This document shows positions 1-22,059 of a stretch of DNA of 22,059 nt, one piece after another (within the stretch, counting starts at the first letter, position 1; every line of letters begins with the position of its first letter). The stretch lies in the IMG/VR virus record IMGVR_UViG_3300030329_006221, positions 1 to 22,059 of that record; one strand, 5' to 3'. Source of the DNA: a virus. The notes beneath the pieces are model-generated. The model did no database searches. It saw only the letters and a list, made by a program, of their open reading frames with translations, and had not been told where the DNA came from. A program made the position numbers and the translations under genes.

Positions 1-1005
1 TCTTTCTTTATTCTCTTTCCAATGACTTTTCGCTATTTTCCTTTGCGCTTTTTCTGATTTGCTCATAGGGAGTTTTTTATGAGAATCTCCTAACATTTCT
101 TCATCAAGCAATGGAGCCATAATGCATAAACAATTCACAACTTGGTTTGCTGGTGCATTAGTGTCATTTGGATGTTTCATCTTAACTCCACCAACGGTGA
201 ACATTTCATCTTTTGCGACTTTCTGTCCGTCGGCTGCAAGATGGTCTGGTCTACTATTTTCAGCAAATGCTGCAATCCATTCTTTTCTCTCTACGAAATC
301 TACTTGCTCATATGTGAAATTATCACCAGCGTTTTGAATGTTTCCTAATTCTGTTCTTGCAATTTGTTGCATTTTCGCTTTTCCACCAGGGAATTGGAAA
401 TCTTCCATTTCGCTTTGCATCTTTCCAACTAAATCTTTCATAGACATTCCAGTATTCATCGCTCTCTGTAGTTCCCTTCTTATTCCATATATGTTAGCTT
501 CCGCGAGTTGCGTAGACCATTTTGGTACAGAATTGTAAAAACCCATTCTGTTTCTTCGTAAAGCTTCTCTTGAAGTTGCGAAAAACGCTCCTTCCTCGAA
601 AGATGGGATTATCTTTTCTCCGTTAGCAGCTTCGTATCCATATCCTGCATCTACTGCTCTTGACTTAATATCTTCCAATGGCTCTTTGATATATTCTTCC
701 ATATCGAATTCACCACTTGAAATTATTGAATCTGCAATCTCATTAGATAATTCAGTTTCTCCTATTGGATAAAAGAACATAAGCTTAGGGTCAGGTGAAG
801 TTTTATTCACAGATTTTCCTGACAATTGCTCCAAATATGACGCTGGTGCTAACGCTCTAATGTTCTTAAAGAAAGCTTTATTGTGTTTCTTGGTGATTTT
901 AAAAACTATCTCTAAAAGTCTTTTTTCTCTCTCTAGCTTCCTTTTTGTTTTCTCAACGCTATACTCATCTTTTCCCTTAAGCTTAACGTCTGGTAAGGTG
1001 ATTTT
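1..1005 (-). CDS. MuF-like minor head protein, partial, reached by -1 frameshift from portal
   Basis: This frame is open on the minus strand from 1056 to the left edge and reads as a head-morphogenesis protein of the SPP1 gp7 / Mu F family, which sits at the portal and takes part in head assembly or DNA ejection. Seen: a Lys/Glu-rich, probably coiled-coil first part, an ARTELG segment near 340-360, then an ERKEW...DH..ADGQ stretch, a hydrophobic-P-N-D segment and NCLC near 125. This is the usual MuF order, with C-L-C where C-R-C is common. The frame has no ATG, GTG or TTG between the in-frame stop at 1057-1059 and a TTG at 832-834. The first ATG (778-780) has no ribosome binding site and would delete the N-terminal third. 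The coding signal starts inside the portal gene in the -1 frame, so I infer translation as a portal extension. The end lies outside the window. Family call is firm; mode of expression is inferred. Confidence 0.8.
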
Positions 1006-2360
1006 TTTTTTGACTTGTCTTCGTTTCTTGCTGGACCTCTTTCTCCTTCCATCGCATTAGGCGCGGAGTTTGCATCTCCAGGTTTTGGTCCATTTCCTTG
1101 TCCGAAATCTCCTTCTAAAATATTAGACAATGGACCTAAATTCATTGGAGCCATTATTTCATCTCCACCTTCTATTGGTGGGAGACCATCTATTTTTCTT
1201 AATTCATTCCTTGTCGCATGTCCAAATGCGTAGTATGTTCGTAATTGCTCTAACCTAAATTGAGAATCTTTTGCACGTGGGTCTTGGAATTTTATGCTAT
1301 GACTACCTTTGAACATCGGCATGAGATATTTGTTGATAGTTCCTTCTAATTTCTTTAGCAATGGCATGATTACGTTATTGTTCATCATTCTCTCACTTGC
1401 TTCTAATTCGCTCTTGTTTGAACTTTGTCCTGCAAGTACAACGGTTACGGGTACACCGAATGCTGCGGCAATCTCTTCACGAATCTGTTCTCTAGATTCT
1501 ATATGTTCTATTTCGTCTAGAGGTATGTTTAACGGTACGAACTCTAGAGCACCATGTTCAATCACTGCAATCTTTCCTCTCTTATCTCCACCTGAGTAAA
1601 GTTGTTGCCACTTGTTTCTCAAAGCTCTTGCTTCATTTTCATCTAATGGCAATTTAGAAACTAAAAGTCCATCAGGGATTGCTCTGTTCTTCAAAAGTTT
1701 TAATCTATGTTCATTTGTCTGATTATCTAAATCTATAGCATATGCAGATGCTTCAAGAGGAGAGAATCCATAATAAATGCTTCTTGGTCCTGGAAGTTTG
1801 AAATGAATCACTTCTTCACGAGAGAAGGCAACAGATTTTTTACCTTCAGGCAAAGATTGGTGATAATGAGATTCTGTATTTCCAATTTCATAAACATATC
1901 CAGCTACCAATTCTCCATTTCCATCTTGAGTCGTTTCAGGAACCACTCTCATAAGATGTCCCATTAAAGGATGTAATTCAATTGGTTTTCCATTTCTATT
2001 TCTTACTACGTACCAATATGCATTTCCATGAAGTTGCAAATCTATCACTGTTCTTTCCCATAGTTCTGTTGTGTCCATGATTGGGTTTGGATTGTTGAAT
2101 AAATCGTTTATAGGTCCATCATTTATTTCATATTCCTTTTTAGCACCTTTGAACAAAACATTAAATTCATTCATCATCATCTTGTTAGCAATTAACCTAA
2201 CGAAGACATACACCCAAGATTTATATTCTTTTGCGATATCTTTTGGAGGGATTGCCCTATTAAGGTTATCACCTTTCCCATAAGGAGATGCAACAACGTC
2301 TAAATACCTTTCTGCATTTTTCCTTTTGAATAATTTTTTAAAATTGTCTACAATACCCAT
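933..2360 (-). CDS. HK97-type phage portal protein
   Basis: Forms the dodecameric ring at the unique head vertex through which DNA is packaged and released. The 475 residues fit the HK97/Phage_portal family in length and motifs: an early WVYVFVRLIANKM helix, LHGNAYWYVVRNRNG near 110-125, a P-L-E-A-S segment in the wing, then an AAFGVPVTVV segment followed by a long stem helix and a Gly/Pro-rich acidic tail. Its first 13 bases overlap the end of the terminase gene, so translation is probably coupled. In the zero frame the protein ends 23 codons after a run of ten A residues with a basic tail. A -1 shift on that run continues into the minor head protein instead. Confidence 0.96.
   Translation of the reverse strand: MGIVDNFKKLFKRKNAERYLDVVASPYGKGDNLNRAIPPKDIAKEYKSWVYVFVRLIANKMMMNEFNVLFKGAKKEYEINDGPINDLFNNPNPIMDTTELWERTVIDLQLHGNAYWYVVRNRNGKPIELHPLMGHLMRVVPETTQDGNGELVAGYVYEIGNTESHYHQSLPEGKKSVAFSREEVIHFKLPGPRSIYYGFSPLEASAYAIDLDNQTNEHRLKLLKNRAIPDGLLVSKLPLDENEARALRNKWQQLYSGGDKRGKIAVIEHGALEFVPLNIPLDEIEHIESREQIREEIAAAFGVPVTVVLAGQSSNKSELEASERMMNNNVIMPLLKKLEGTINKYLMPMFKGSHSIKFQDPRAKDSQFRLEQLRTYYAFGHATRNELRKIDGLPPIEGGDEIMAPMNLGPLSNILEGDFGQGNGPKPGDANSAPNAMEGERGPARNEDKSKKKSPYQTLSLREKMSIALRKQKGS
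1002..1011 (-). promoter_or_regulatory. Candidate -1 ribosomal frameshift site (A10) joining portal to MuF-like protein
   Basis: On the message strand ten A residues are read in the portal frame as TCA-AAA-AAA-AAA-TCA, which contains the canonical slippery heptamer A-AAA-AAA. Slipping back one base moves the ribosome into the frame that encodes the MuF-like protein. A purine-rich GGAGAAAGAGG lies about 30 bases upstream and could act as an internal Shine-Dalgarno stimulator. Downstream, CCTTA and TAAGG can pair to form a weak stem. RNA polymerase slippage on A10 would give the same product. A one-base undercount of the run in the assembly would also explain it. Confidence 0.6.
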
Positions 2361-5148: not shown

Positions 5149-5546
5149 GAAACCTAGAGAATCTAGTCCAAAAGATATGGTTTGAGTCCTAATCTGGAAA
5201 GGTCAGTCCAGTATTCTATGGTAGTAGCCTTGCCTCTCGCAGCGCTGCTGGCGTATTAGGCAGCTAGCTACTCTCTTGGGACCCTTAGGTTCCTCTTTCG
5301 GGAGGGAGGCTTAGGGCAAGGCCATAGCGGGTCGCTAGGCGGTGAGGTGGTGTCGTTAAAGCTACACGACCTAGGTGTGCTACACGTAGGCACGTTTCAC
5401 GTACCACGTTTGCACCTGTTAGGACCTCTCCTACTCTAGTTAAGGGAACCTGGTTAGTCCCTAACCTAAGACCTAGGGTTCTAAGACCCTTAAGGGGATA
5501 GGGAATCCTACGGTTCTAGAATCCGGTTTGTCCCAAACAAGGGTCT
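5149..5546. ncRNA. GC-rich structured non-coding element, candidate RNA
   Basis: About 400 bases with no credible reading frame. GC content reaches about 62% in 5281-5340, against roughly 25-40% in flanking genes. Unusually many CTAG, CCTA and TAGG words occur. Paired segments I can place: 5223-5228 with 5267-5272, 5231-5235 with 5258-5262 and 5239-5243 with 5247-5252 (one long nested stem); 5275-5278 with 5317-5320 and 5282-5285 with 5313-5316 around a stem at 5292-5296/5301-5305; 5352-5355 with 5367-5370; 5373-5377 with 5413-5417, stacked directly on 5418-5425 with 5457-5465; and 5483-5491 with 5539-5547. The strand is undecided: neighbours are read leftward, but one small loop is UUCG on the plus strand. 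No known RNA family is recognised. Confidence 0.55.
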
Positions 5547-12751: not shown

Positions 12752-13546
12752 ATGAATATGACAAACTTAAGACTAGAACTTGAAAACGAGAGACTAAACA
12801 ACGAAACTAAAAGAACTCTTGGAATCGAAGTTGAATTTAACAGACCAACAAATCTTAGCAAAAGCGAGACTGTTGAAAAGTTGAACGAAACTGGAATCAC
12901 TGTGGTAGACGCTTCTTATGGTCACTCAGTAAATTCAAATTGGAAGGTCGTGACTGACGGTTCTACTGACCTTGAATTAGTATCACCAATCCTTAAACTT
13001 GAAGAGTTGAAAGCTCAACTTAAAGCTCTTCTTGAAAAAATGAATGAGATTGGTTGCTCAGTTGACAGAAGATGTGGAGTTCACCTTCATGTTGGAGTTT
13101 CTGAATTCAAAAAGAAAAACTTCATCAACCTTCTTAACATCTACAAAAACAGTGAAAAGGTTATGGACAGCCTTCAACCAAGAAGTAGAAGAAATTCAAA
13201 TAACACTTACTGTGCAAGTCTTCAAAGAAAAAACATCGAAGATTTGGTTGGCTACTCAGCGAGAAGCAATGTTCGATACCACAAAATTAACTTTTGTTGT
13301 TTTGCAACTTACGGAACTGTTGAGTTCAGACATCAAGCTGGAACGCTAAACTTCGAAAAGATTATGCTTTTCGTAGCGATAACAACTGCGATGACTGAGA
13401 AAGCTTCATGCCCACCAAGTAAAGTTCACAAGTTCAATTCTTCAAAACCTTACTCAATGGCTAAAATGTTCCAAGTAATAAGAATGTCAAAAAGAAATCC
13501 TGAAATGGTAAACTTCGCAAAAGCTAGAGTTTCTGCTCTAGCTTAA
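12752..13546 (+). CDS. Amidoligase (COOH-NH2 ligase, Amidoligase_2 family)
   Basis: 264 residues of the glutamine-synthetase/ATP-grasp-like amidoligases that join an amine to a carboxylate using ATP. Motifs: GIEVEFN (24-30), WKVVTDGS...LELVSP (64-79), CGVHLHVG (108-115) and GTVEFRHQAGT (188-198), which give the expected metal/ATP carboxylates and His/Arg residues. Length is slightly short but complete. Known: phages and bacteria often pair this family with gamma-glutamylcyclotransferase-like proteins, as here. The acceptor is unknown: a peptide, a polyamine or a modified DNA base. Leucine codons are mostly CTT and the ribosome binding site is strong, suggesting high expression. Confidence 0.92.
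   Translation: MNMTNLRLELENERLNNETKRTLGIEVEFNRPTNLSKSETVEKLNETGITVVDASYGHSVNSNWKVVTDGSTDLELVSPILKLEELKAQLKALLEKMNEIGCSVDRRCGVHLHVGVSEFKKKNFINLLNIYKNSEKVMDSLQPRSRRNSNNTYCASLQRKNIEDLVGYSARSNVRYHKINFCCFATYGTVEFRHQAGTLNFEKIMLFVAITTAMTEKASCPPSKVHKFNSSKPYSMAKMFQVIRMSKRNPEMVNFAKARVSALA
13521..13544 (+). other. 9-bp perfect hairpin at the end of the amidoligase gene
   Basis: AAGCTAGAG (13521-13529) and CTCTAGCTT (13536-13544) form a perfect stem with a TTTCTG loop, ending at the first base of the stop codon. No T-run follows directly, so it is more likely a transcript-stabilising, processing or attenuating element between amidoligase and cyclotransferase than a classic terminator. Confidence 0.55.
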
Positions 13547-13570
13547 TGCGATTTTCAAAAGGAGAAAATT

Positions 13571-14029
13571 ATGAAAATGAAAAACGAATTATTAAAACGA
13601 AAATACGAAACTAAGAAAATCAAAGTCTTCGTGTACGGAACCCTTCTCGAAGGATTTGGAAACCACCGTCTCCTTAAGTATTCTAAAAAAATAAACAAAG
13701 TTGCCTCAATACGAGGCTTTACTATGTACAAAGATTACGGTGCCTTTCCAGTCATTCAACCTTCACATGGTGATAAAGGCGAAAGGGTATTTGGAGAACT
13801 ATACGAAATTGACGATGTCACTCTCCAAGGCTTAGACCTTCTTGAAGGCTATGTCGAAGGGAGAGACGGAAATCTTTATGAGAGAATTGTCACGGATGTT
13901 TTCTGCGAAGACGATTATGGAAATGAATTTTATTACGATATGGCTTATGTGTATGTGGATAAAAAAAGTTATTTTGAAAAAATATCCGACACAAATAAAA
14001 AAGGCTATTACGATTGGAGGATAAATTAA
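13571..14029 (+). CDS. Gamma-glutamylcyclotransferase-like protein (AIG2/GGACT fold)
   Basis: 152 residues. The signature KVFVYGTLLEGFGNHRLL (18-35) is the nucleotide-like loop of the cyclotransferase fold, followed by a G-x-x-x-Y segment, VFGELYEI and LDLLEGY, with the acidic residue expected to act as catalytic base, and a Tyr-rich C-terminus. Such enzymes release 5-oxoproline from gamma-glutamyl amines or epsilon-lysine linkages. Next to an amidoligase it may reverse, trim or proofread the amide formed. AAGGAG lies seven bases before the ATG; stop overlaps the next start (TAATG). Confidence 0.9.
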   Translation: MKMKNELLKRKYETKKIKVFVYGTLLEGFGNHRLLKYSKKINKVASIRGFTMYKDYGAFPVIQPSHGDKGERVFGELYEIDDVTLQGLDLLEGYVEGRDGNLYERIVTDVFCEDDYGNEFYYDMAYVYVDKKSYFEKISDTNKKGYYDWRIN

Positions 14030-15231: not shown

Positions 15232-16011
15232 TTAGATTATCATTTGATAATTGTCAGGAACTGGTTGAGACACAAGTAATTGCGGCCTTTGGTTCGTGAC
15301 ATTAGAAGATATGTTCACGGCTATTGCGGCAGTGGCTGAATATGGTGCCTCATTCGATGTATTACAAGCGTCGTGAGTTGACGTATCTCCAAACCAAGTT
15401 TCATGAATCGCATACATGTAAGTGAAGTTGTCTCTATCGCACCAATCCACGAAATCAGTGCCTGAGCCTGAGTCCAAGGAAATGTCATTGTATTGTCCCG
15501 TTGTAAGGTCTGAATGGTTAACCGTCTTGATTAACACTAACCCCTCATTCACGTTGCACGTGCCCGATCCGCATCCCGCGTGTGTTTCACAATAAATATT
15601 CCAATCGTCTGGGTTGGTAGGATTTACTGAATGGCTGGGCCTATCACTTCCTCCAGTTATTCCTGCGTAGATTCTTATTTTCTGAGAAGCGGTCCCTAGC
15701 CCTGTCGTGTTCGTTATTGAATTTACATACAACCTTAACGTGACTGAGTTTATATCTGTACTATCTTCCAAACCGGTGACACCCGATACGCCAGTGCCGA
15801 ATCTAAAATACATGCTTCTTATAGTATATCTGTAATATGAAAACGACCTAAGACAAGCGGAACCTAAATCCATTGTTGTCGTGCTTAATTGAGCAAAGCT
15901 TCCAGTGTTGAATTTCGCCGCGCTCCATGCAGCGTCGTCTCCAAGGGTCACTGGACTCGTTTGTGAAACTAATGAAGGTATATTTTCGAATGTTCTTATT
16001 CTATTTGCCAT
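15232..16011 (-). CDS. Virion surface or tail fibre protein with clustered cysteines
   Basis: 259 residues rich in Ser, Thr, Asn and Gly, with beta-strand-like repeats (SVTLRLYVNSITN, KIRIYAGI). Shape resembles the jelly-roll DNRLRE-type or carbohydrate-binding modules found in phage fibres. Six cysteines, three of them in ETHAGCGSGTC, could form disulphides outside the cell. It follows the fibre gene with TAATG coupling, so it is probably displayed on the tail. No family is certain. Confidence 0.7.
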   Translation of the reverse strand: MANRIRTFENIPSLVSQTSPVTLGDDAAWSAAKFNTGSFAQLSTTTMDLGSACLRSFSYYRYTIRSMYFRFGTGVSGVTGLEDSTDINSVTLRLYVNSITNTTGLGTASQKIRIYAGITGGSDRPSHSVNPTNPDDWNIYCETHAGCGSGTCNVNEGLVLIKTVNHSDLTTGQYNDISLDSGSGTDFVDWCDRDNFTYMYAIHETWFGDTSTHDACNTSNEAPYSATAAIAVNISSNVTNQRPQLLVSQPVPDNYQMII

Positions 16012-17123
16012 TACGCTGCGGTTATCTCCAAAAATACCGTTATAGATAAATTTTCTGGAGAGCCACTAACTCCAGAGATGATAGGTGCAAGTTCATCTTT
16101 GTCAGAAAGTGTTATCGTCCCTTCTGTGGTGGCTGGTGTTGTTGTCGCCGTCAATGGCGAACCAGATGTTCCATAACCACTTATGTCAGAACCATTTCTC
16201 AATAATCTCCAAGTCGCGTTTGTTCCACCACTTATTGAATATATCACAGAAACGAGTTTAACAGTTGTTGTATAACCCGCTCCACTGTATGTATTTCTTA
16301 CTGTCATTGGCAGGAGGGTTGATGCTTCCACAGTTTCAGCTATCGCCCATGTGTGAGAGATTATAGACCTAGACGTGGTTGATATCGTTTGCCATGAACA
16401 TGAACCATCTCCATCTTCTCTTAAGAATTTACTTCCTCCACTTTCTCCTGTGGATTTAAGTTCAGTTCCTTCTAAATCTACCGTAAAAGTCAAATCGTAA
16501 GGGTCTGCATCTGTTCCATCACTCGTGTCCGTCCAATCGATATCTATCCCAGTTCCTTCTACAAATTTTATTTCTTTAGCGTTTTCAATCGTGACTTCGT
16601 CTCCGTTTCCATCTTCTAAAACGAAGTTTGACATTGAGCCTCCACCGCCTCCACCACTTGTCAAATCTACTTCGGCACCTGCATCATCTTTGAGATAAAG
16701 GTTCCCATCATTCTTTAAATACAAGACACCTTCACCACTCGAGGGTGTGCCTGGTGCTGTCGTGCCCGAACCTTCTTTTAGATATATAGCCACACCATTG
16801 GTGTCATTGGCCTCTATCCTCATTCTTTCATTTCCACCCGTGTCGAATCTTATCTTGTCTTCGTCATCGCTCTCTTCACATTGGACTTTTGTATCAGCAT
16901 CTGTATCCGTTATGAGGGTTAGTTCATCAGAATCTGGAACGCTTGGGTTGTCTGGTCCACCAAAATCATCAGTAAACCCTGCAGCCTCTGCCTCTCCAAA
17001 TTCTACGGAAACAGGTTTTGTTGTATCTACAAAATCTATTCTTTCTGTTTCCTTCTTGTGGAAGAATCTTTCGAAATATCTTTTGAAACTTTTTAATGGT
17101 TTTTGTCTATCAAATATGCTCAT
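16011..17123 (-). CDS. Tail fibre-like protein
   Basis: 370 residues. After a basic N-terminus comes an acidic stretch, then a fibre-type module (GTTAPGTPSSGEGVLYLKND, GNLYLKDDAG, a Gly run) common in phage tail fibres and baseplate-attached proteins, and a C-terminal Thr/Ser-rich beta domain (LVSVIYSISGG, ATWRLLRNG). Likely trimeric and involved in host contact. GAGGATGAG precedes the ATG. The N-terminal part may attach to the baseplate. Confidence 0.8.
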   Translation of the reverse strand: MSIFDRQKPLKSFKRYFERFFHKKETERIDFVDTTKPVSVEFGEAEAAGFTDDFGGPDNPSVPDSDELTLITDTDADTKVQCEESDDEDKIRFDTGGNERMRIEANDTNGVAIYLKEGSGTTAPGTPSSGEGVLYLKNDGNLYLKDDAGAEVDLTSGGGGGGSMSNFVLEDGNGDEVTIENAKEIKFVEGTGIDIDWTDTSDGTDADPYDLTFTVDLEGTELKSTGESGGSKFLREDGDGSCSWQTISTTSRSIISHTWAIAETVEASTLLPMTVRNTYSGAGYTTTVKLVSVIYSISGGTNATWRLLRNGSDISGYGTSGSPLTATTTPATTEGTITLSDKDELAPIISGVSGSPENLSITVFLEITAA

Positions 17124-17130
17124 CTCATCC

Positions 17131-20100
17131 TCACTTCGCCTGTATCAATTTAGCCGTTTTGTTTCTATCATAATCCTCTAACCTAAAATCAAACCTTGAA
17201 CCATCAGCAGTTAATGAAAACTTATATGATGTAAGAACTCCAGTGAATGAATCATCAGACACGGTGATAGTCTTCCCTAATGCTGGAAGATTGTTTGAAT
17301 CCACGAATGGAGACTTCCCTTCTAAGGAATAATCTCTTGCTTGGAATCTCCTTAACTTATCATCAATGTGTTGTTGACCTAAAGATTGTCCTTCTGTTTT
17401 TGAGAAATTTCCTAGATTTACTGGCATTGTCTTATATCCTAAAGAAGCGATTTTCTTATATGTTGGAGAGTATGACAACCTTTCTGGGTCATCTTTAGTG
17501 ATTTGGTTTTTCGTGCTTCTTATGAACATGGCTTTTTTACCAACGCCTGTGACTTCAAAATTACTTAAAGTATTTCCACAATACACGTAACCCGCTCTGT
17601 GACCTGCATCATTAGTCGTAGCATCTATGGCATTGTCAAATGCAGTGTATCTATAAGTGTTGTTATGTGTGTTTGGGTCTACTGAAAAAAACCAAGAATC
17701 TTGTCTTAGTTTATTTCCTAGCGCGTGTCCTCTTCCATGGTTCGTGAATACGTTTGGCCTTTGGAATGCTTCTGCCGCATTGTCTCCTCTTGAACTTCCG
17801 TCAACTTCTAAATCGAAGCCATAAGTCTTGTATCCTTTCGCTGCGTTAGTTTGCCTTAGCCAGCATCTTCTTTCTCCTGCCCAACCGGGTTGTGCCGCGG
17901 GTGAGCCTAACGCGAGGATTCTTATTCCATTCACGCCTTTGACGGCGCAGTCTTTAAGCTTGAATCTTTTTCCTCCGTTCGAAGCGCGGAGTTCTACAGC
18001 ATTATCATTGAAGTTTTGCCATGTTGTCGATGCTGAAAGTGGGTCTGATGCATTGAGTTCCGTTGTGACTTGGACCCTCCATCTTCCTCCATTCCATTTC
18101 AATCCTCTGTCTGCGGCGAGTTCTGTTGTGAAACTAAATTCGTCTAAGTCTAAAGATATTCCGTCTCTAAACCAAAAAGTGCATAAGTGGAGAGGGTCAT
18201 TCAAAGCATTTGTTGTTGGGATGCCCATAGATGATTTTTTTACCCATTGGTATGAATCATCTCCAGTTCCACCATCTGTTCTCCATTCCATACGTCTCCA
18301 TAATGCTTGATGCAAATAAGTACTTTTGCCTCTAAATGCCTCAGTGTTTACATCGAATTTCTGAACATCTGGACCTAACCCTCCTAAGAAAGTGGAATCC
18401 CAAAAGTAAAGAGGTGGTGTTGCACCGTCTGACGTGGAATTCCATGTTCCACCATAATCTTTAGAAAATCCTGTTTGTGGTGCATCAGATTTTGCTACAC
18501 TAGCCGTGGAGTAATTGCACCCATATTGAAGAATATTTTTCGGTGCGAAGTAATTTTGGTCAGGTAATTGTATTTGGAGCAAGACTGCGGAATAGACATC
18601 GGACAAATCTCTTTCTCTTGACAAGGACACTAAACTCCCTGCGGCAAAAGTTATATCAGCCGATGATTTTTGTGTCAATGGCTTAAATACCATCTTCTCT
18701 GAATTGTCGTCATATCTCAAATCGTAAAGGAGACCTGCATCTTCACATACTTTGTCTATCAATGATTTTGGTTCTAGTGGAATCTTTCCTCCTTCAAACG
18801 CTTTGTATTGAATATTATTAATCTTCACACCAGTGTTCTGGCTGTTTGTTGTGTCATATATAAGCCCAGCACCACCAGTTTCTTTAGATGATTTGATGAT
18901 ATCTTCGTTAGATGCAGTTAAGCTAGTCAATCCAGTCGTTGCGATTTGCACTATCTCTGAAATATCTAAAGATGTTGTATCTGTTCCCTTGTCTGGATTC
19001 GCTGAACTAGCATCAGCATCGTATGTGTACATGTGAGAATATATGGAAGTCTTTCCGTCCCATCTGTTATCACCTTGTGAAAAATGAATTAGTCCTTCCG
19101 ATGCAGTTACGGCATAATCACCTTCGTCCGCACTCATAGGACTCGTTTTATCTACGTTGTAAACTAAAGGTGGACTTCCTCCAAATCTATTAGGGAAACA
19201 TTCAATGACGTAGGTGTCCGCAGCCCATGCGATACCATATTCATCATTGTCATCGGTATCCCATGAGTTCGTTAAATCTCCTCTTGTATGTCTGTCTTCT
19301 TCCGCTCCATCGCTAAACGCTGAAAGGTACCATTTGTCCTTATCGTGGTCAGGCAAATTTCCATGGTAGTGTGCCAATTCAATGAAATTGTTTGTCGCAC
19401 CTTTTAGTATCGCTACCCAGCCTCTTCCATTGAAACCTATTCTATCATCTCTATCGCTTCCGCTCGTCCTTCCTACATATATCCTATTTGAATCATTATC
19501 AGATTCAGTTCTTGTCGCAGGCGCTGTGAGAGCCTCTCTCAAAACGGTATTGAAACCATAACCATCATTGCTTCCACCCGCAACATAATCAGCGTCACTC
19601 TCTACGCCTTCTCCAATTTGCCAATTACAAGAGAAGATAACAAACCTATCATTCGTATTCCATATTGCGTCAATAGTTGTTATTTGAGTATTACTGTCTA
19701 CGACTTCTACATAAGTGGCTTTGTTCTGAGTGCAATTCAAAACCACACACCCAGGTTTAATGATATCGCTAGTGAATCCACCAGTGGAATATTGCATGAC
19801 ATCAGAATTTGTCACAGTGTTTGTTATCGCTAAGGTTGTATATGTTCCATCGGTATTTGTCGTAGAATTTGGCAATGCAAATGGTTGCGCAACATACGTA
19901 TAATCTTGGTACGCTTTAGTTTGAAAGATTTTATTGTCGCTTCCATAACCTGCGTTTCCAGTTTCTATTAATTCGGTTGACTTTGTCCAGTTGAAAGAAG
20001 GCAACACTCCTGCTGTGGACATTTTGTTCCCTGGAATTATCGTGTAATCTAAAGACGCAGACTTATCCATCGCAGTGAACGTAATTTCACGAGAATCACT

Positions 20101-20880
20101 ATGGACTTGTGTAGGAGCATCGATAATATGACCGTCAAATATTACCTTACTCCCGGTAGTTTCTGTCACTCGGACAGTACTGCCAAGTTGCAATGCATTT
20201 GATATTGAATCATCATCAGAATATTTGTTTGCACCTTCTATATCATTCAATACGGTTGCAGTTAATTGTTTTGGTTCATTTAGTTCTCCATCAATGTCAA
20301 TGGATTCTGGATATAAGGTTGCTGAGGCTCCTCTCCCTATTTCGAAAGATGTTGCCGAAACGGCTATGGACGTGTCGATGGTAAGCGTTGTTGTGTTCGA
20401 ACCTGTGGTCGTGTTCGCAGAAATAAGGTAAGCAGTTCCGTCTAATTTGTCAGGAACGAAATACATTCCTTTAAATTCATGTTCTTCAGGATTTACATTA
20501 GTTCCATATTTATTCTTTATCGCTGTCAATGCTATGCTCGTTGATGCGGTTCCATTTGCAGTGACGGTTCCTACCACTCCACCCGCTATGCGATACGTGT
20601 CTGTACCCGCAGTTAACGAAGAGTGGTTCCCAGTGACAGTTAATGTATTTACTGTATTATCAGTTATTGCAGCCACAGTTGGATTAGATTCATTGGTGTC
20701 AACAACAACATAATATCCAATCCATTCATCTACAACCCAATTCGCATTGTCATCTGTTAGAACGGTTGACGGAGCCGAATAAGAACCTACGCCGGTCCAT
20801 GTTCCTCTATCACCCCAATTCTGCAATGATTCTTGAAAATGTCCATTAGAAACTGCGACTTTGATTGTTGGTAATGCCAT
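17131..20880 (-). CDS. Large baseplate-hub-like tail protein with inserted domains
   Basis: 1249 residues. An N-terminal module (TDDNANWVVDEWIGYYV, then NTVNTLTV) is a short repeat known from phage structural proteins. From about 190, GELNEPKQLTATVLND, a G-S-T-V-R-V strand, VIFDGHI and REITFTAMDKSASLDY are the barrel of a gp27/gpD-like hub. SLIDKVCEDAGLLYDLRYD (near 760) and the C-terminal ALGKTITVSDD...FSLTADG...FRLEDYDR continue this fold. Long Gly/Asp/Asn-rich stretches between these blocks have no assigned role and may be receptor-binding insertions. It follows the small tail protein with TAATG coupling, the usual place of the hub after the tape measure. Confidence 0.75.
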   Translation of the reverse strand: MALPTIKVAVSNGHFQESLQNWGDRGTWTGVGSYSAPSTVLTDDNANWVVDEWIGYYVVVDTNESNPTVAAITDNTVNTLTVTGNHSSLTAGTDTYRIAGGVVGTVTANGTASTSIALTAIKNKYGTNVNPEEHEFKGMYFVPDKLDGTAYLISANTTTGSNTTTLTIDTSIAVSATSFEIGRGASATLYPESIDIDGELNEPKQLTATVLNDIEGANKYSDDDSISNALQLGSTVRVTETTGSKVIFDGHIIDAPTQVHSDSREITFTAMDKSASLDYTIIPGNKMSTAGVLPSFNWTKSTELIETGNAGYGSDNKIFQTKAYQDYTYVAQPFALPNSTTNTDGTYTTLAITNTVTNSDVMQYSTGGFTSDIIKPGCVVLNCTQNKATYVEVVDSNTQITTIDAIWNTNDRFVIFSCNWQIGEGVESDADYVAGGSNDGYGFNTVLREALTAPATRTESDNDSNRIYVGRTSGSDRDDRIGFNGRGWVAILKGATNNFIELAHYHGNLPDHDKDKWYLSAFSDGAEEDRHTRGDLTNSWDTDDNDEYGIAWAADTYVIECFPNRFGGSPPLVYNVDKTSPMSADEGDYAVTASEGLIHFSQGDNRWDGKTSIYSHMYTYDADASSANPDKGTDTTSLDISEIVQIATTGLTSLTASNEDIIKSSKETGGAGLIYDTTNSQNTGVKINNIQYKAFEGGKIPLEPKSLIDKVCEDAGLLYDLRYDDNSEKMVFKPLTQKSSADITFAAGSLVSLSRERDLSDVYSAVLLQIQLPDQNYFAPKNILQYGCNYSTASVAKSDAPQTGFSKDYGGTWNSTSDGATPPLYFWDSTFLGGLGPDVQKFDVNTEAFRGKSTYLHQALWRRMEWRTDGGTGDDSYQWVKKSSMGIPTTNALNDPLHLCTFWFRDGISLDLDEFSFTTELAADRGLKWNGGRWRVQVTTELNASDPLSASTTWQNFNDNAVELRASNGGKRFKLKDCAVKGVNGIRILALGSPAAQPGWAGERRCWLRQTNAAKGYKTYGFDLEVDGSSRGDNAAEAFQRPNVFTNHGRGHALGNKLRQDSWFFSVDPNTHNNTYRYTAFDNAIDATTNDAGHRAGYVYCGNTLSNFEVTGVGKKAMFIRSTKNQITKDDPERLSYSPTYKKIASLGYKTMPVNLGNFSKTEGQSLGQQHIDDKLRRFQARDYSLEGKSPFVDSNNLPALGKTITVSDDSFTGVLTSYKFSLTADGSRFDFRLEDYDRNKTAKLIQAK

Positions 20881-21293
20881 TAACTTGTTTCGTATCTATC
20901 GACATCGATGACTACGGAATATTCAGGTTCTGACATCTTCGCCTCTGAGTACGCACCTCCATCTAGACTTAAGATATATCCAAAGAAATATTTTGGAGTG
21001 GCATCGTAATATGTGGAATTAGATGCATGCTCTCTTATCCTAACTTGAGTTCCAGCATTCATCCACGTGTTAAGTTGTGTCCATTCACTCCTTGTCACGG
21101 CACCAATTGGAAGTGATAAAGTTATTTGCCTTATTTTTCCATAAGTCTGAATATCTTTTGTTCGTACATATCCGTTTATATCTCTATAATTCCAATCGTC
21201 TCTATGCAAGACTTCCATTAAAATCACAGGTTCCAAATCCATGGTTGGACTTCCATCAGTTTCTTCTATCGTTATTCTTCCTTCGTTTGCCAT
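20880..21293 (-). CDS. Small tail protein between tape measure and hub
   Basis: 137 residues, beta-rich (GKIRQITLSLPIGAV, TPKYFFGYILSLDGG, YSVVIDV) with no recognised family. Position suggests a distal-tail or tail-hub adaptor protein. Both junctions are TAATG overlaps. Confidence 0.65.
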   Translation of the reverse strand: MANEGRITIEETDGSPTMDLEPVILMEVLHRDDWNYRDINGYVRTKDIQTYGKIRQITLSLPIGAVTRSEWTQLNTWMNAGTQVRIREHASNSTYYDATPKYFFGYILSLDGGAYSEAKMSEPEYSVVIDVDRYETS

Positions 21294-22059
21294 TACAATC
21301 TCGCTCCTTGGTTAATCGCGTTAGACATAGTTATGTTTGCAGGGTTAGTTATCATTGGAGAAACATTTCTTCTTGATGCGACCTTTAGCATTTCTCCACT
21401 CATATCGTCCCAGTTAACAACCTTTACGGGTTGAGGTTTTTTCTCAACTTTCTTCTTTTTATTGAACAAACCCATAATTCCGCTTGTCAAGAATCCTCCA
21501 ACTCCACCACCTAATAAACCTCCTAAAGGTCCACCACCAAACATACCTGCGATCGAAGATGAGAATCCTTGAATCATTGGGTTAACCTGTTGCATGACAG
21601 CATTTTGCAAAATGTTCATTGCTCCACCACTTTGTCCACCACCAATCATTGTTCCTATTTGAGTCGCGAAAGAATTCCAATCAAAACCTTTTTCTCCGTC
21701 TTCTCCTCCATTTCCATCATCACCACCAGTTCCTGCTGTTCCTTCACCTGGGTCAGGCAAGACGGGTGTAGTCGTAGTTGAAACTGTTTCATTCAAGCCA
21801 TCAAGCGATTCTGATAGATTGTCTAATCTTTCTTCTAAATCTTCGTTGATTGTTCTTAACGCATCTTCATGTCGTTTATCTTCATTTTCAAATCCATCTA
21901 AAATCATGCCACTCGCTTCTGCTTGACCTTCTTTGAAGGCTTTTGATAAATCTACATCTCCAGTTGCGATGTCAATTATGTTTTTAAATGGAATCTTCGA
22001 ACCTTTAAGGTCTTCTTCTAAATCTAGAATTTGGTCAGAAATACTTTTTCCTTCTTTGT
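21293..22059 (-). CDS. Probable C-terminal part of the tape measure protein, partial
   Basis: The frame is open through the right edge, so the start is missing. The visible 255 residues comprise a charged coiled coil (EDALRTINEDLEERLDNLSESLDGLNE), a Thr/Pro/Gly/Asp linker, and a Gly-rich hydrophobic segment (GGGPLGGLLGGGVGGFLTSG) followed by a basic patch, then a short C-terminus. Coiled coil plus membrane-active Gly-rich span just before the distal-tail and hub genes fits a tape measure protein, which sets tail length and enters the host membrane. An ATG at 21905-21907 could be an internal start, but the reading frame looks coding upstream of it. Confidence 0.6.
   Translation of the reverse strand, partial: KEGKSISDQILDLEEDLKGSKIPFKNIIDIATGDVDLSKAFKEGQAEASGMILDGFENEDKRHEDALRTINEDLEERLDNLSESLDGLNETVSTTTTPVLPDPGEGTAGTGGDDGNGGEDGEKGFDWNSFATQIGTMIGGGQSGGAMNILQNAVMQQVNPMIQGFSSSIAGMFGGGPLGGLLGGGVGGFLTSGIMGLFNKKKKVEKKPQPVKVVNWDDMSGEMLKVASRRNVSPMITNPANITMSNAINQGARL

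Follow-up and report, generated by a model that had tools for sequence, protein, structure and literature searches.

Portal and MuF-like frames of the window

The window, the whole 22,059-nt stretch of viral DNA analysed here, carries on its minus strand a large terminase gene (3616-2348), a portal gene (2360-933), and a MuF-like frame (1056-1), in this order. The terminase, nearest to the Tunturi_4 and Thermus P23-45 type, served to find syntenic relatives. The portal ORF encodes 475 aa, starts at an ATG preceded by the Shine-Dalgarno sequence GAGGAG, and ends at a TAG; a profile match over its core (PF04860, E 1.3e-61) identified an HK97-type portal. The MuF-like frame is -1 relative to the portal ORF, follows an upstream stop just before 1056, and stays open for 352 residues, reaching the contig end before any stop. 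Its residues 192-312 matched PF04233 (1.5e-9, 39 bits vs the curated cut-off of 29.6), which indicated membership of the MuF/SPP1 gp7 family.

Exactly ten A residues occur in the mRNA at 1011-1002 (TC A AAA AAA AAA T; T10 on the plus strand), 22 codons before the portal stop. The portal codons at the run are GAC AAG TCA AAA AAA AAA TCA CCT, and the -1 frame continues from KKK into ITLPDVK and on into MuF, so that the run and the frame entered by a -1 slip were as the original prediction had described. The run contains the in-phase heptamer A AAA AAA, of the form X XXY YYZ, and direct reading of the overlap found no second -1 heptamer that fits. Both frames are open behind the run (936-1001), where the portal tail reads SPYQTLSLREKMSIALRKQKGS and the MuF frame reads ITLPDVKLKGKDEYSVEKTKR.

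The same prediction held that the MuF frame lacks a start codon until well inside and that its coding signal begins within the 3' end of the portal gene, and both points were confirmed. No ATG, GTG, or TTG was found in the frame from 1056 down to a TTG at 834-832, which lies 98 nt past the portal stop and has no Shine-Dalgarno sequence, a feature present at many of the window's other genes. A product begun at TTG 834 would still include the Pfam domain but not the basic helical N-terminus seen in other MuF proteins. The codon-usage signal crosses between the frames over the A run: the score before it was 0.52 for the portal frame vs -0.55 for the MuF frame, the scores of the two frames over the 22 codons after it were intermediate (0.05 and 0.08; true frames average 0.23 and stop-free off-frames -0.28), and past the portal stop the signal was in the MuF frame only. 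Over the 55 codons from the run to TTG 834, the MuF frame is free of stops and the other two frames contain 4 and 9.

No other A/T run in the window reaches a length of 9. A run of 10 somewhere in 22 kb arose in 22-61% of Markov simulations and in 71% of synonymous reshuffles, and is therefore not itself rare; the unlikely part is its place in the 124-nt overlap, since the probability that a sole run of at least 9 would land there was about 0.1-0.5% by arithmetic from the same simulations.

Folding of the 60 nt 3' of the run gave z -1.5 in the window, and no strong stimulatory RNA structure was found there. A weak hairpin at 990-955, 11 nt 3' of the run (about -9 kcal/mol, z -1.1), was considered as a frameshift stimulator and was not convincing. 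In addition, no Shine-Dalgarno sequence was found 10-14 nt upstream of the run in the window.

Three other regions of the window were noted. An Amidoligase_2 gene followed by a gamma-glutamyl cyclotransferase-like gene (12752-14029, plus strand), on the strand opposite to most of the window, is possibly a peptide-tagging pair. Coding is dense except for about 400 nt between gene blocks (5149-5546) that hold no ORF of at least 60 aa. A 1249-aa protein (17131-20880, minus strand) and its neighbours (15232-17123 and 20880-21907) had no match in PHROGs and probably serve as tail or fibre proteins in a phage lineage that has not been sampled.

Relatives and the homopolymer at their portal-MuF junction

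The portal family PHROG 2662 contains portal and MuF segments in one profile, and the two frames of the window match its two ends. Viral contigs were scanned with MuF, terminase, and portal alignments. None of them contained a relative of the window above about 40% identity in terminase or portal, the best terminase matches being at about 36-40%; scans with the window's portal and terminase as single proteins likewise yielded no close relative. The junction DNA, searched with 0-8 extra bases after A7, was found in no other contig. The best terminase matches with both head genes were L092, L093, L094, and L137, each of which has portal and MuF fused in a single ORF. That the nearest relatives syntenic for terminase, portal, and MuF are fused in this way indicates that the two halves in the window belong together.

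In-frame portal-MuF fusions are common among relatives. Portal and MuF were fused in 65 of the 151 loci scored, MuF had a start near the portal end in 76, and it lay further away in 5. An overlapping MuF frame with no nearby start was found in the remaining five: L324, L325, L326, L308, and the window. All five are in the -1 frame and all are at a homopolymer. The original prediction had named as refuting evidence relatives with a normal MuF start; about 76 loci are of this kind, but they represent a separate-gene architecture and are not the nearest relatives, and among them no MuF ORF overlapping the portal has its start at such a distance beyond the portal end.

L324, L325, and L326 come from three metagenomes, are about 59% identical to the cultured phage GBK2, and are 98.9-99.9% identical to one another. 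Their junction reads GGC CGT TTT TTT ACG GTA ATG TAA, and a MuF homologous to that of GBK2 resumes in the -1 frame right after T7 (YGNVKAFDIETDEEKD...), which here forms the in-phase heptamer U UUU UUU. The overlap is 28 nt long, and the earliest start lies beyond the stop by 35 or 50 nt. The three contigs differ from one another only synonymously in both halves (up to 8 differences), and a miscount of T7 in all three is unlikely. The 60 nt 3' of the run gave a folding z of 0.4 in L324, in which a purine-rich stretch precedes T7. The fifth locus, L308, belongs to the L137 clade and has A9 where the clade has A10; its portal ends in AKKKYLPIFR, and its MuF is in the -1 frame. As L308 is a single contig, its A9 could be an error. 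The search that the prediction had called for thus found the same kind of overlap and run in L324-326 (T7) and L308 (A9), and the nearest syntenic relatives proved instead to be fused in frame.

These fused relatives also have homopolymers at the junction, A10 in L093, L094, and L137 and T9 in L092, in the codon phase of the window and at the end of an acidic or glycine-rich linker. All nine fused contigs of the L137 clade, which share 65-100% protein identity, have A10. The residue before KKK varies there between Leu, Val, and Ala (CTA, GTA, and GCA), with a codon that always ends in A, and the three Lys codons of the run are always AAA, as against 6 of 27 invariant Lys columns elsewhere. T9 in the same phase was found in the cultured phages GBK2 (KJ159566) and Silence (KT001912) as well as in L092 and the prophage L321; most of the prophage relatives recovered by genome scans have no run. 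L186 and L187, contigs of 56-57% GC, have A9.

Linker runs of at least 9 were found in 7 of 50 fused clusters at 80% identity, vs 1.7 expected from synonymous reshuffling (P 1.3e-4), and the rest of the same ORFs had none vs 2.1 expected. Coarser clusters gave 5 vs 1.5 expected (60%, P 0.0055) and 3 vs 1.0 (45%, P 0.047); these P values are indicative, as the linker boundary was fixed after the runs had been seen. Enrichment was slight in portal ORFs with no fused MuF, where the window and L308 account for two of the three cases. The presence of the run at the junction in several lineages, with its conservation there, indicates selection on this site as a run. It is absent from most fused lineages (43 of 50 clusters), so that the fused architecture does not need it; slippage thus appears to be an option within the portal-MuF gene family and not its rule.

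Several further loci were recorded. The fused ORF of L300, in the L137 clade, has at about residues 490-620 a conserved insert (GNIQGNDTYRVIKRIREENKSADELTDND...) between A10 and MuF that is absent from the window. The group of L374, L394, L395, L396, and L397 has A8 or A9 where the portal core ends (QKKTNFPERG / LKKTNFPERG). No MuF was detected in the same ORF, and a -1 shift at the run ends after one codon; these runs are possibly the same device with another C-terminal domain. In L297 (Parageobacillus phage JGon-2020a, CP063417), the portal-MuF match is in three pieces and the ORF ends early in the MuF motif (...GGEKAMYPR), and the frame may therefore be broken close to the 3' end; this ORF has no homopolymer of at least 7.

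A candidate slippery site and its alternatives

We consider it probable, from these comparisons, that both portal and portal-MuF come from one gene with a conserved slippery site, through -1 frameshifting by ribosomes, slippage during transcription, or both. The original prediction that the two are joined by a -1 shift thereby gained strong comparative support from the junction homopolymers of several lineages, L324-326 and L308 among them. Its further parts, by which the fusion would be the product of a minority and would have a fixed ratio in the ring, are conjecture. Normal reading would give the 475-aa portal, ending 22 codons past A10, and a -1 change at A10 would give a single longer polypeptide of portal, linker, and MuF. 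Either ribosomes could slip on A AAA AAA or RNA polymerase could add one A to the transcript. The A10 of the window, which exceeds the 9-nt length prone to transcriptional slippage, would allow both routes. T7 falls below this range, and hence in L324-326 the slip is most likely ribosomal, on U UUU UUU. Both forms would be present in the dodecameric portal ring, and MuF would reach the head interior by fusion and not by binding.

Two designs would be in use. Plain reading would yield the short portal and slippage portal-MuF in the window, L308, and L324-326, which may be likened to lambda G/GT; plain reading would yield the fusion and slippage the short portal in the L137 clade, GBK2, Silence, and L092. 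Slip products of the second design end within 16 codons in either frame (after 22 in the -1 frame in L321). The immediate stop of the T9 lineages lies in the +1 frame and not in the -1 frame; in L323 (T7), the -1 frame does stop at once.

The main rival is that the run was undercounted and really holds eleven A in one in-frame portal-MuF gene, the split being a sequencing or assembly error. It is the main rival because the nearest syntenic relatives are in frame: they are fused at A10 and the window would be in frame at A11, one extra A yielding the MuF frame. Moreover, the A10 rests on one base of one contig with no close relative, and lone frame breaks with fused homologues were mostly sequencing errors in the GeneTack survey (PMC3711429). 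However, the same break is found on a mere seven T in the three contigs L324-326, and the conserved runs point to selection on the site as a run. The other large ORFs of the window all look intact, and a run of A11 would be slippery too, as in tssM (PMC4256274). We judge an undercount unlikely, and if the count is eleven, the window would hold an in-frame gene whose junction is slippery in the manner of the L137 clade.

The length of the run may also vary at the DNA level by mutation on replication, so that the fusion would be encoded in part of the genomes and the short portal in the rest, through phase variation or a recent indel. The A9 of L308 vs the A10 of its clade would fit this, as would the proneness of A/T runs of at least 9 to replication slippage (PMC1088944), but A10 is identical throughout the nine fused contigs of the L137 clade, T7 is identical in L324-326, and random switching off of a head gene seems costly; we regard such variation as improbable. 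Least probable of all is that MuF is translated alone, from TTG 834 or from an unusual start codon, for instance the ATC that follows the run: the roughly 76 loci with a separate MuF and the retention of the Pfam domain agree with it, but TTG 834 was judged unlikely to be a normal start from the coding signal and from the start positions of relatives, it lacks a Shine-Dalgarno sequence, its product would lack the basic N-terminal helix, and no stop interrupts the MuF frame between the run and TTG 834.

Known systems and implications for portal genes

In-frame portal-MuF fusions are known from actinobacterial phages of Microbacterium clusters EA and EB (PMC7302621), and Gordonia DalanDe also has one. 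Together with PHROG 2662, they match the product proposed here in uniting both domains, identically ordered, in a single polypeptide; their ORFs are uninterrupted, whereas the halves in the window are in different frames at a homopolymer. Structural genes of phages with -1 frameshifts include the lambda-type tail chaperones and the extended major capsid proteins of Lactobacillus A2 and phage T3 (PMC5009743). They resemble the candidate slippery site of the window in that a slip near the 3' end of the gene yields a virion or assembly protein in two forms, one short and one with a C-terminal extension, but they concern tail chaperones, capsid, and tail tube, and not the portal. In agreement with the original prediction, we found no portal frameshift in the literature searched, which lay largely outside subscription journals, and a portal-MuF junction on a slippery run is not described for the portal in these papers.

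Transcriptional slippage on A9 of Thermus dnaX gives mixed mRNAs and short and long products (PMC1088944), and slippage on A11 of Citrobacter tssM is needed for the long form (PMC4256274). Like tssM, Shigella mxiE (a U run) and the window need slippage for the long form; the long form of dnaX is in frame, like those of the A10 and T9 relatives. None of these three is a phage portal gene. Slippage was measured in them, whereas in the window we infer the slippage, how efficient it is and how it comes about, and also that virions take up both products. In SPP1, the portal targets gp7, of the MuF family, to the procapsid interior in few copies, and gp7 raises infectivity (PMC6316719). The proteins are the same as here, but SPP1 gp6 (portal) and gp7 are encoded by separate genes and bind non-covalently. 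Given that gp7 enters in few copies via the portal, mixed portal forms would be useful.

We propose tentatively, and with less confidence than the slippery site itself, that in a family of tailed phages the conserved slippery homopolymer of the portal gene sets how many of the twelve subunits carry a covalent MuF, in mirrored designs that add MuF (window, L324-326, and L308) or remove it (L137 clade, GBK2, and Silence). Although they are dodecamers, portal rings meet capsids of five-fold symmetry, and the number of MuF copies on them is small. If the proposal is true, tagged and untagged subunits from one gene would be a simple way to set the number of MuF, and would also place a cargo-bearing domain inside the head. 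Since MuF proteins carry toxin domains in many temperate phages (PMC6316719), the mechanism would bear on how phages load proteins together with DNA. It is testable in GBK2 and Silence, both cultured and genome-sequenced. The same idea suggests two products for some of the portal genes whose annotation is that of a broken gene or a simple fusion.
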